Source: Williamsia maris (GTDB taxonomy: Bacteria > Actinomycetota > Actinomycetes > Mycobacteriales > Mycobacteriaceae). Taken from it: DNA of 64,000 nucleotides. The stretch's first letter is position 1; each line of letters opens with the position of its first letter. The notes under the pieces were generated by a model, which saw only the letters and a list, made by a program, of their open reading frames with translations, did not search any database and had not been told where the DNA came from. Below are positions 11,740 to 16,731 of this stretch, piece after piece. The stretch spans positions 744,001 through 808,000 of the forward strand of contig NZ_JAMTCJ010000001.1 in assembly GCF_024171815.1 (NCBI RefSeq), read 5' to 3'. A program made the translations under genes and the position numbers.

Positions 11740-12279
11740 GTGTTCACCCTCAAGGCAGGCGAGAAGAAGTTCCTCGCCATCGCCACCATCGTCGCCCTCG
11801 TCTTCGTCGCCGTGGTCGGCTCCGCGGTCGCCCTGCTCGTCATCAACAACGACCATGACGAGGTGCCCTACCTGCAGGCGACGACCGGCACGACCCTCGT
11901 GCACGTCGAACCGACCATCCTGTGCGAGATCGATCTGTCGAACTGCAAGAAGGGCGCCGAGGACACGTTCGCGCCGCGCGTCCCGGTACCCGCCGGCGAG
12001 TCGATCATCGTGTCGTTGTCCAGCGGCATCTTCGACGCACCGTGGGCCCTGACGCTGGAGTTCTTGACGCCCAAGGGTTTCGAGCAGCAGCCCCCGGAGT
12101 TCTTCGCGCCGGACGAGAAGTACTCGTTCACGGTGCGCTCGACCAAAGAACGCCTGCTCACCAACATCGAGGTCCGTCTACCGTCGGGACGTACCGACAC
12201 CGCAGGGGCTCCGATCACCAGAGGCTTCTGGTCGATCAACACCCTGCCCGAGGGCACGCAGGTCCCGGCACAGAGCTAG
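11740..12279 (+). CDS. DUF2771 membrane-anchored protein (Rv0875c-like)
   Basis: A 179-residue protein: a short cytoplasmic start, one helix (about residues 11-34, IATIVALVFVAVVGSAVALLV) and an outside domain with a cysteine pair (LCEIDLSNC) and an aromatic FWSINTLPEGTQVP end. This fits DUF2771, an extracytoplasmic family of unknown role. It starts at GTG 11740, 7 bp after the MFS stop, and is probably co-expressed with it. The gene ends where the large repeat region begins. Confidence 0.75.
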   Translation: MFTLKAGEKKFLAIATIVALVFVAVVGSAVALLVINNDHDEVPYLQATTGTTLVHVEPTILCEIDLSNCKKGAEDTFAPRVPVPAGESIIVSLSSGIFDAPWALTLEFLTPKGFEQQPPEFFAPDEKYSFTVRSTKERLLTNIEVRLPSGRTDTAGAPITRGFWSINTLPEGTQVPAQS

Positions 12280-12305
12280 TCGCCTGAGCCGACTGTGGGG
12301 AAACC

Positions 12306-12504
12306 GTCAGCAGAGCCGATGCCCAGGCGCCGTCATCGACTACACGGAAACTCGCCACACGCGCTGACTGTGTGGAAACGGTCGTCGAGTGTGCTCGCAG
12401 CGGCAGGTGACATCACCTCAAGACAGCGCACACTCGACGATCGGCTTCCGCACCGTCGGCGGCTCTCGGCCGACCACCATACGAGTGTCAGACGCTGGCG
12501 GTGC
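12306..12504 (+). repeat. 199-bp direct repeat, copy A
   Basis: Copy A of a 199-bp unit that recurs 281 bp downstream with about 17 mismatches by eye (roughly 91% identity). Both copies carry an internal hairpin built from TCGAGTGTGC and its reverse complement. The gap between the DUF2771 gene (ends 12279) and cspB (ends 12833) has no credible gene; short frames here follow the repeats and start nowhere sensible. Confidence 0.9.
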
Positions 12505-12592
12505 GGAAGCCCCGCATCGAGTGTGCGCAGTTCACGAGACGGACTCACCCCACGCCGACAGCACACTCGATGCGCGTTTCCACACAGTCAGC
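12363..12592. repeat. 230-bp unit with 18-bp perfect terminal inverted repeats
   Basis: GCTGACTGTGTGGAAACG at 12363-12380 is repeated in perfect inverse at 12575-12592. Between them lie TCGAGTGTGC motifs at 12385(+), 12428(-), 12517(+) and 12561(-) and a CGGCTTCCGCACCG / GGTGCGGAAGC inverted pair. The outline is that of a miniature transposable element, but I see no clear target-site duplication. Confidence 0.7.
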
Positions 12593-12785
12593 AAAGCCAA
12601 TGCCCAGGCGCCGTCAACGACTAACCGGAAACTTTCCACACGCGCTGACTGTGTGGAAACGGTCGTCGAGTGTGCTCACAGCGGCACCTGACATGACCTC
12701 GAGACAGCGCACACTCGACGACCGGCTTCCGCACCGTCGGCGGCTCTCCGCCGACCACCACACGAGTTTCAGACGCTGACGGTGC
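12587..12785 (+). repeat. 199-bp direct repeat, copy B
   Basis: Second copy of the unit at 12306-12504. It contains GACTGTGTGGAAACG at 12647 and a TCGAGTGTGC pair at 12666(+) and 12709(-). It lacks a matching right-hand terminal repeat; only a partial CACAGTCAGC is found near 12819. It overlaps the right end of the 230-bp inverted-repeat unit. Confidence 0.9.
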
Positions 12786-12832
12786 ACATCGACGCAACAG
12801 CTCCGTGACCGATCGCTACACAGTCAGCCGAT

Positions 12833-13255
12833 TCAGTGCTCGAGCTCCTTGGCAACCGCTCGGACGACCTCGGAGATGCGTTGCGCGGTCTTGCGGTCCG
12901 GGTACTTGCCGTGGCGCAGATCGGGCTGGATCTTGTTCTCGAGCAGGGTGATCAGATCGGCGACCATGCCGTGCAGCTCGTCGGGTGAGTGCCGCTTGAC
13001 CGGCTCGCGGGCCGCCGCGGCCGCCTCGCGCGCGTTCTTCGCGACGCTGGGCGCGGGCTCGAGCACCGTCACCGACAAAGCCTGCGGACCACGCCGGCCC
13101 GCGGCCATGCCGAACTCGACACGCTGTCCGGGCTTGAGCGCCTCGACACCGCCCGCGAGAGCGCTCGAACGCACGTAGACGTCCTCGCCGTCCTCCTGCG
13201 ACAGGAAGCCGAAGCCCTTCTCCGCGTCGTACCACTTCACCTTGCCGGTTGGCAC
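12833..13255 (-). CDS. cspB: Cold-shock protein with helical extension (CspB, Rv0871-like)
   Basis: A 140-residue protein. Residues 1-66 are a cold-shock domain with RNP1 KGFGFLSQ and RNP2-like DVYVRSSAL, which bind single-stranded nucleic acid. Residues ~75-140 are a helical, charged extension ([14 protein letters not shown] through AVAKELEH), as in the long mycobacterial CspB rather than the 67-residue CspA. It starts at GTG 13255 ([13 protein letters not shown]), the conserved beginning of the fold. A stem-loop followed by a T-rich stretch lies about 74 nt upstream in the leader. Confidence 0.88.
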
Positions 13256-15910: not shown

Positions 15911-16104
15911 TCCGCGCCAAACCTCGTTCCGTGGACAGGGTCACCGATCACGAATTCAGGAACGAGGGCGGGGGACCCACATCTCCTCCAGAGAACCGGG
16001 ATCCCGGCGAGTCATCGCCGAGATTCCTTGGGGTGAAGCTCCACTTGTGGAGCCGGGCAACCTCTCAGCCCGAACCCGACAGCTCACTTCGTCGGCGCGT
16101 GGAG
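15911..16104 (+). promoter_or_regulatory. c-di-AMP riboswitch (ydaO/yuaA type) before rpf
   Basis: The leader has the conserved ydaO-type elements in order: GCGGGGGACCCA (15968 on), TTGGGGTGAAGCTCC (about 16027-16041), GAGCCGGGCAACCTC, and CCGAACCCGACAGCTCACTTC (about 16070-16090). A closing helix can form between CGCGCC (15913-15918) and GGCGCG (16094-16099), and CCTCGTTCC/GGAACGAGG (15922/15959) pair inside. In actinobacteria this class controls cell-wall hydrolase and rpf genes, usually switching them off when c-di-AMP is bound. Edges are approximate. The upstream part, 15623-15910, shows no gene and should hold the promoter. Confidence 0.85.
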
Positions 16105-16119
16105 AGAGGAATACCTTTT

Positions 16120-16731
16120 ATGTCCGGACGTCATCGCAAACCGACCTCCACCACCCGTACCGTTGCTCGCGTAGCGGTCACCTCCGCTGTTCTCGGCGGC
16201 GGCGCCAGCATGCTTCTGGGGGTCGGCAACGCAGCTGCAGCCACCGATTCCGAGTGGAGCCAGGTCGCACAGTGTGAGTCGGGCGGCAACTGGGGGATCA
16301 ACACCGGCAACGGTTACCAGGGCGGGCTGCAGTTCAGCCCCAGCACCTGGGCCGGCCACGGTGGTACCCAGTTCGCGCCCTCGGCCAACCAGGCCACCAA
16401 GGAACAGCAGATCGCAGTCGCCGAGAAGGTCCTCGCGGGCCAGGGCAAGGGCGCATGGCCGGTGTGTGGCACCGGTCTCGGCGCGCCGACCCCCCGCAGC
16501 ACCACCCCGGTCGACCTGCCGAAGCTGCCGAGCGTGAAGGCGCCGGAGCTCAAGACCCCGGAGGCACCGGCCGCTCAGTCCGAGGCCAACAAGAAGGTCG
16601 ACGAGGCACTCGCCGAGCAGAAGGTCGACCCCGCGGTCACCGCGCTCTGGGAGCAGGCCAAGAAGAGCGGCGTTCAGCTCGACGACGGCCAGCTCGCGCT
16701 GTTCAACCAGTTCAAGGGACTGCTGCCCTGA
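16120..16731 (+). CDS. rpfA: Resuscitation-promoting factor (transglycosylase-like)
   Basis: A 203-residue secreted muralytic protein. Residues 1-41 are a Sec signal peptide ending AAAA; the Rpf domain follows (residues ~42-115) with catalytic glutamate in QCESGGNWGI, a LQFSPSTW motif, and a cysteine pair (QCESGG and WPVCGTG). A proline-rich linker and a helical tail (KKVDEALAEQ to FKGLLP) complete it. Rpf domains cleave peptidoglycan glycan strands and wake dormant cells. It sits at the rpfA locus but is about half the length of M. tuberculosis RpfA. ATG 16120 has GGAGAGAGGA upstream, just 3' of a c-di-AMP riboswitch. Confidence 0.92.
   Translation: MSGRHRKPTSTTRTVARVAVTSAVLGGGASMLLGVGNAAAATDSEWSQVAQCESGGNWGINTGNGYQGGLQFSPSTWAGHGGTQFAPSANQATKEQQIAVAEKVLAGQGKGAWPVCGTGLGAPTPRSTTPVDLPKLPSVKAPELKTPEAPAAQSEANKKVDEALAEQKVDPAVTALWEQAKKSGVQLDDGQLALFNQFKGLLP

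Follow-up and report, generated by a model that had tools for sequence, protein, structure and literature searches.

The repeat array analysed here is an old, gene-less member of a family of 101-bp hairpin units, and elsewhere in Williamsia such units lie in constant polarity upstream of genes for DUF222-HNH ("13E12") proteins. The result suggests an unrecognised partnership of a mobile gene and short repeats. There is about an even chance that the family consists of REPIN-like hairpins that are the ends, or relatives, of a DUF222-HNH element, whose protein would recognise, cleave and mobilise them.

Anatomy of the repeat array

The window is the whole stretch of DNA that was analysed, 64 kb of one Williamsia genome (G000). 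The array lies between two convergent genes, which encode a DUF2771 protein (gene end at 12279) and a cold-shock-domain protein (cspB, gene end at 12833). Sequence self-comparison gave a direct repeat of 202 nt with 91% identity at 12303-12504 and 12584-12785, which slightly refines the bounds of the initial annotation (12306-12504 and 12587-12785, about 91%). The 18-bp inverted pair described there (12363-12380/12575-12592) was found again as the outer part of longer inverted arms, 12363-12410 and 12545-12592, of 48 nt and 81% complementarity. Six TCGAGTGTGC motifs were recovered in alternating orientation exactly where they had been reported (12385+, 12428-, 12517+, 12561-, 12666+ and 12709-). 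They are the only six in the window, against a chance expectation of 0.43, and none of 100 shuffles reached six.

The six motifs form the arms of three hairpin units of 101 bp each. The array as a whole is one pair of hairpins, A-28 bp-B, and its tandem duplicate, in which B is damaged. Unit A (12363-12463, + strand) runs from an L-end, GCTGACTGTGTGGAAA, to an R-end, CTTCCGCACCGTCGGCGGC. An inner spacer of 28 bp (12464-12491) separates its R-end from that of unit B (12492-12592, - strand), which is inverted relative to A. Unit A' (12644-12744, + strand) is the tandem duplicate of A; like B, it was located by unit alignment and covariance-model search. The remnant of the second B (B', 12772-12828, - strand) retains the R-end start (12772-12785) and the L-end tail (12818-12828) and has lost its middle; for comparison, the B of G001 is deleted and that of G005 is intact. 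The direct repeat is a tandem duplication of a spacer, unit A and the start of unit B. An isolated L-end, a truncated unit start with two mismatches to GCTGACTGTGTGGAAA (12288-12303, + strand; 756288 in the contig), flanks unit A on its outer side.

RNA folding of 12285-12835 gave z = -10.9, and 0 of 100 shuffles were equally stable. The multi-hairpin structure considered in the initial annotation is real, and its arms covary. The array had no match above the gathering score in an Rfam search of the window. The sole match in the window was a c-di-AMP riboswitch (RF00379, 15932-16113, + strand, 73.7 bits), which overlaps the start of an ORF (15931-16731) that seems to encode a secreted protein of the resuscitation-promoting-factor type.

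Structure and constraint of the hairpin unit

In the alignment of copies, the hairpin is polar and imperfectly palindromic. Its ends are GCTGACTGTGTGGAAA (L) and CTTCCGCACCGTCAGCGGC (R), its inner arms (CGAGTGTGCT / GCACACTCG) are highly conserved, and its loop, some 30 nt long, varies. The RNAalifold consensus has 25 pairs, 6 of them with compensatory changes on both sides. The two strands are not equivalent, and the + strand fold is the more stable one in 88 of 92 units. Among the 84 units with parsable ends, 77 have a T.G wobble at position 11. At position 7, 56 have T.C, 14 have T.T, 3 have C.T and 11 have a pairable combination (T.A, T.G or G.C). The geometry of the pairs is also regular: the R-R gap is 26-30 bp in 21 of the 25 adjacent +/- pairs counted. 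At the 47 loci compared, 44 stray L-ends stand no farther than 300 bp from a unit: 38 on the outer side with the same polarity, 4 on the outer side with opposite polarity and 2 on the inner side with opposite polarity. When at most one mismatch was allowed in the eight genomes, stray L-ends occurred only beside full or partial units, and the reversed L-end pattern had no match.

Divergence was measured by setting each unit against the most similar unit at an orthologous place. In 31 such comparisons the arms differed at 113 of 2220 positions (5.1%) and the loops at 212 of 887 (23.9%). Therefore, the arms are either constrained or homogenised.

Distribution and history of the family

A covariance model built from 73 units was used with a cut-off of 70 bits against eight Williamsia genomes, the window's included. 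It found 92 units at 52 places (clusters) in six of them: 30 in the window's genome (at 13 places), 24 in G001, 19 in W. herbipolensis ARP1 (G004), 14 in G005, 3 in W. serinedens (G002) and 2 in G006. Matches were ranked by score, and any that lie beyond the ranks considered score lower. Only weak unit matches appeared in G003 and G007. With the array as query, 61 matches at E up to 1 were obtained in the window's genome. Fourteen of 251 sampled genomes of the taxonomic family (8 Williamsia and 6 others) matched at E up to 0.001 under stricter filters, and the best unit match in the 243 non-Williamsia genomes was 57.7 bits. As far as sequence matches tell, the hairpin family is Williamsia-specific and scattered. 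Chance or a purely local duplication can be dismissed as an explanation, since homologues are dispersed at 52 places, although part of the array itself is a local tandem duplication.

The gap between the DUF2771 and cold-shock genes is short and has no unit in G002, G004, G006 and G007, and G003, which has no DUF2771 match there, is uninformative. Three close species have a unit there. G005 carries A-B, G001 carries A and a B gutted to its ends, and the window carries A-B-A' and a gutted B'. On the simplest reading, an A-28 bp-B pair would have entered the gap in the ancestor of these three species, before their split, followed by tandem duplication in the window's genome. The initial annotation had considered two overlapping miniature transposable elements, a multi-hairpin RNA or a protein-binding array and had suggested a search for dispersed copies, empty sites and target duplications in the genus. 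The element family holds, with dispersed copies, conserved repeats and unoccupied orthologous sites, but the two overlapping elements are one duplicated pair.

The DUF222-HNH partner genes

Some +/- pairs are spaced 1.7 kb apart, and an insertion sequence was expected between them. In G004 the DNA between them holds a gene whose product, of about 500 aa, has a DUF222 domain. A pair of the same spacing in G002 (L061) was set aside as an element; it holds what reads as an ordinary gene for a flavin-type monooxygenase, and the sites on its two sides are separate. A unit stands upstream, in constant polarity, of 14 DUF222/HNH-like genes in three species (14 of 52 clusters), namely three genes in G000, two in G001 and nine in G004. 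The units of G002, G005 and G006 have no linked gene. This count used the 57 best DUF222 matches, and 74 further matches had no unit within 2 kb. The distance from the unit to the DUF222 domain hit is 233-245 bp in 12 of the 14, 427 bp in one whose hit starts late and 847 bp in one with extra DNA between. Four of the nine linked W. herbipolensis genes also carry an inverted downstream unit, B (4 more clusters), and in these A-gene-B copies the inverted repeat runs about 20 bases inwards past the unit. B is absent in 10 of the 14 linked copies, all those of G000 and G001 and five of nine in G004. The gene-bearing element is 1.6-1.9 kb in size, and the DUF222 gene with its HNH-like C-terminus is its sole gene.

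DUF222 matches number 6 to 28 in each of the eight Williamsia genomes, with 19 in the window's. In a tree of 44 DUF222 proteins (the 14 linked and 30 others, a part of all DUF222 hits), all 14 linked genes fall in one 18-row clade with support 99/96. Rows without a unit are 4 inside this clade and 26 of 26 outside it. The 14 linked genes share a common ancestry, so their linkage could be one inherited event. The median dN/dS among linked copies is 0.14 in G000 (3 copies), 0.12 in G001 (2) and 0.13 in G004 (9); judged by these ratios, the linked genes are under purifying selection.

The DUF222 domain was detected in two linked proteins with E-values of 2.7e-58 and 4.9e-56, and the remaining linked genes also have domain hits. 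Residues C369, C374, H384, H385 and C405 are invariant among 33 aligned DUF222 proteins. The linked proteins scanned gave no Pfam or NCBIfam hit for an HNH domain, and solved structures gave no sequence match. The middle N of the HNH motif is not kept.

Matches to the SOS (LexA) box TCGAACNNNNGTTCGA were scored. The five linked G000 and G001 genes agree with it at every fixed position (12 of 12), 58-65 bp upstream, and the nine linked G004 genes at 9-10 of 12. At least 11 matches occurred in 57 of 3000 random 320-bp windows drawn from the fetched loci, DUF222 loci included. A 12/12 match also precedes two unlinked DUF222 genes, so the SOS box is not specific to the linked ones. The linked DUF222-HNH genes of two species are predicted to be DNA-damage-induced.

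DUF222-HNH genes are repeated widely in Actinobacteria. They are dispersed as near-bare cassettes of about 1.6-2.0 kb in Gordonia spumicola (L250-L259, L265), and such cassettes are also found in Mycolicibacterium frederiksbergense (L282, L287-L289) and Williamsia limnetica (L266-L286 in part). The cassettes run from at or near the promoter to at or near the stop codon, and no long terminal palindromes were seen at them by eye. The unit is present at 9 of 66 DUF222 loci compared, and all nine are of W. herbipolensis. Multi-copy DUF222 genes without the unit in other lineages indicate that the hairpin is not required for their spread. Flanks were also folded at 30 DUF222 loci. The units reached about -53 to -69 kcal/mol and other loci down to -60.8, and folding energy alone did not tell the units from the rest of the GC-rich upstream DNA. 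By eye, these 30 loci showed no further long simple hairpin, and thus the hairpin link is not general.

Mobility of gene-bearing and gene-less copies

Over 1638 bp, two gene-bearing copies of the window's genome match with 96.5% identity, and their flanks are unrelated. Of 19 linked units, 17 have their nearest relative at a different place of their own genome. For gene-less units the nearest relative lies in another genome, at another place, in 65 of 73 cases and elsewhere in the same genome in 8 of 73; ties were counted as the other genome, and three G002 units in one locus could match only elsewhere. The difference indicates that the gene-bearing copies have either moved recently or been held similar by gene conversion, whereas the gene-less pairs, the window's included, are old. 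The gene-less units are mostly vertically inherited, and this counts against the reading that the protein mobilises them at present.

Unoccupied or reduced sites were found in G001 at C3_691, C1_1077 and C1_592 and in G000 at the place of G001_2249. Two reduced G001 sites retain an L-end remnant, which makes deletion and non-insertion indistinguishable there. No target duplication was seen by eye at the four occupied/unoccupied places, some of which have flanks that are not clean enough for the comparison.

Two further features of the intergenic gaps were observed. At the C1:389 place of G000, unit A is separated from its DUF222 gene by some 645 bp of other, ORF-containing DNA (L100, about 665-1310); the orthologous place in G001 is without this stretch, and that in G005 has the unit only. 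A second short palindromic repeat, AACGCTCC ... GGAGCGTT, shares some gaps with the hairpin units, either beside a unit or at a unit-less gap (L166 2042-2086, L192 1475-1519, L177 1996-2213, L185 1423-1486). The longer form of this motif has no match in the window.

Comparison with known systems

REP/BIME and REPIN-RAYT systems are described, in the passages available, as extragenic palindromes in inverted pairs and ordered tandem clusters, with gene-less copies and a nuclease-type gene beside the palindrome (PMC3116915). The Williamsia units share all these features; by a rough ORF-based call, their places fall between ORFs. However, the unit is 101 bp long against 20-40 bp for REP in the part of the source seen (PMC3733652), it occurs in tens of copies (30 in G000) against the often more than 100 per genome given in the available text of another (PMC2817692), and its inner gap is fixed near 28 bp. 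The partner differs as well, being DUF222-HNH and not the Y1 transposase of RAYT. The RAYT-type Y1_Tnp (PF01797) was found in 0 of 8 Williamsia genomes, with a control search positive in 5 of 14 known genomes. We class the family as a variant of the REP-like kind, REPIN-RAYT-like in layout and lacking a RAYT.

Four LexA-regulon genes of M. tuberculosis are described as probable 13E12 members with mobile-element characteristics in the section available (PMC5005354), and REP13E12 regions as being without a defined biological function in an excerpt of another paper (PMC13061034). The Williamsia genes resemble these in protein family, in their dispersal in multiple copies and in the SOS-box match. 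In contrast, the passages of those sources at hand name no palindromic partner or gene-less derivative, whereas one Williamsia clade has the hairpin family. In the open-licence literature, with subscription papers outside the scope of the search, no link of DUF222-HNH genes to palindromic repeats was found. Only one open-licence paper contains "HNH endonuclease" as well as the REP phrase, each in a context of its own, and no assigned function of DUF222-HNH genes was found there.

Proposed mechanism and alternatives

We propose that the unit would be the left end of a DUF222-HNH element, with both ends present in four of nine W. herbipolensis copies. The DUF222-HNH protein, made after DNA damage, might recognise the hairpin as single-stranded DNA, for which the conserved T.G wobble and the usual T.C mismatch could mark the strand. 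The protein would then nick or cut at the hairpin, and repair would copy the flanked DNA, the gene with its flanking hairpins, to new sites. The gene-less pairs may have spread earlier, in trans or by gene loss, and would now be mostly static, being derivatives or pads kept for another reason. In its fullest form, which we put forward tentatively and at somewhat below even odds, DUF222-HNH (13E12) proteins would be the enzymes of a kind of mobile element not described so far, which is induced by DNA damage, recognises hairpins and has neither a Y1 nor a DDE transposase, and the gene-less REPIN-like pairs would be its passengers or landing pads. Three observations argue against a simple cut-and-paste element: L-end remnants persist, 10 of the 14 linked copies have no B, and the DUF222 cassettes of other lineages are bare.

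Hairpins as ends and hairpins as landing pads both fit, and ends are the best version. If they were pads, the hairpin pairs would be older chromosomal sequences that a homing DUF222-HNH gene targets. This is possible, with perhaps one chance in a few. Gene-less units do look older than gene-bearing ones, and some places persist while their content turns over. At C3_691, A and the gene stand in opposite orientations in G000 (L075) and G004 (L214, C26), with both flanks matched, and G001 has the L-end only; this may reflect a recurrent insertion place or an inversion. The unit at C4_510 is solo in G000 and paired in two other genomes (+/- in G004, -/+ in G005), and C2_835 is common to G000, G002, G004, G005 and G006. 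However, the additional inner bases that are inverted repeats in the four G004 A-gene-B copies are like element ends, and A accompanies the gene at two unrelated places of G000. Besides, the approximately 100 bases beside the left flank of C1_1077 are without a unit in five genomes (G002, G003, G005, G006 and G007), whose right flanks differ and are unmatched.

Less probable is a hairpin kept by the host as a bidirectional transcription barrier, an mRNA 3' end between convergent genes or a nucleoid-protein site, with an incidental DUF222 link. The very stable folding and the low divergence of arms relative to loops agree with such a role. Of 47 places, 42 were assignable, and 22 of these have convergent genes on either side, a weak count made with a crude ORF caller that takes the DUF222 gene as neighbour at linked places. 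However, no T-tract terminator was found in 12200-12900, and neither the strand asymmetry nor the stacked L-ends would be necessary for this function. Units are also absent from the DUF2771-cspB gap of four congeners, and an incidental DUF222 link would not be so regular.

It is very improbable that the units are ordinary MITEs, the ends of a DDE-type insertion sequence present in or lost from the genus. The likeness is in small, dispersed, gene-less inverted-repeat pairs of about 230 bp. The unit is common to these pairs and the DUF222-HNH loci, which are putative autonomous elements and have no B in 10 of 14 linked copies. On the other hand, each end is itself a hairpin, the partner is not a known transposase and the target duplications looked for were not seen. 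No transposase family was the main hit in any of 13 genes beside 10 free sites of the window's genome (often one side only), and 72,556 plasmid and 50,697 phage records gave no match to the array family.

Implications

If a DUF222-HNH element has these hairpins as its ends or relatives, the 13E12 family, which is large in Actinobacteria, would gain a substrate and a role. The substrate is directly testable, because a defined DNA partner, a fixed polarity, a strand-marked hairpin and natural empty, gene-less and gene-bearing alleles are available. RAYT would then not be the only partner with which REPIN-like hairpins can arise.
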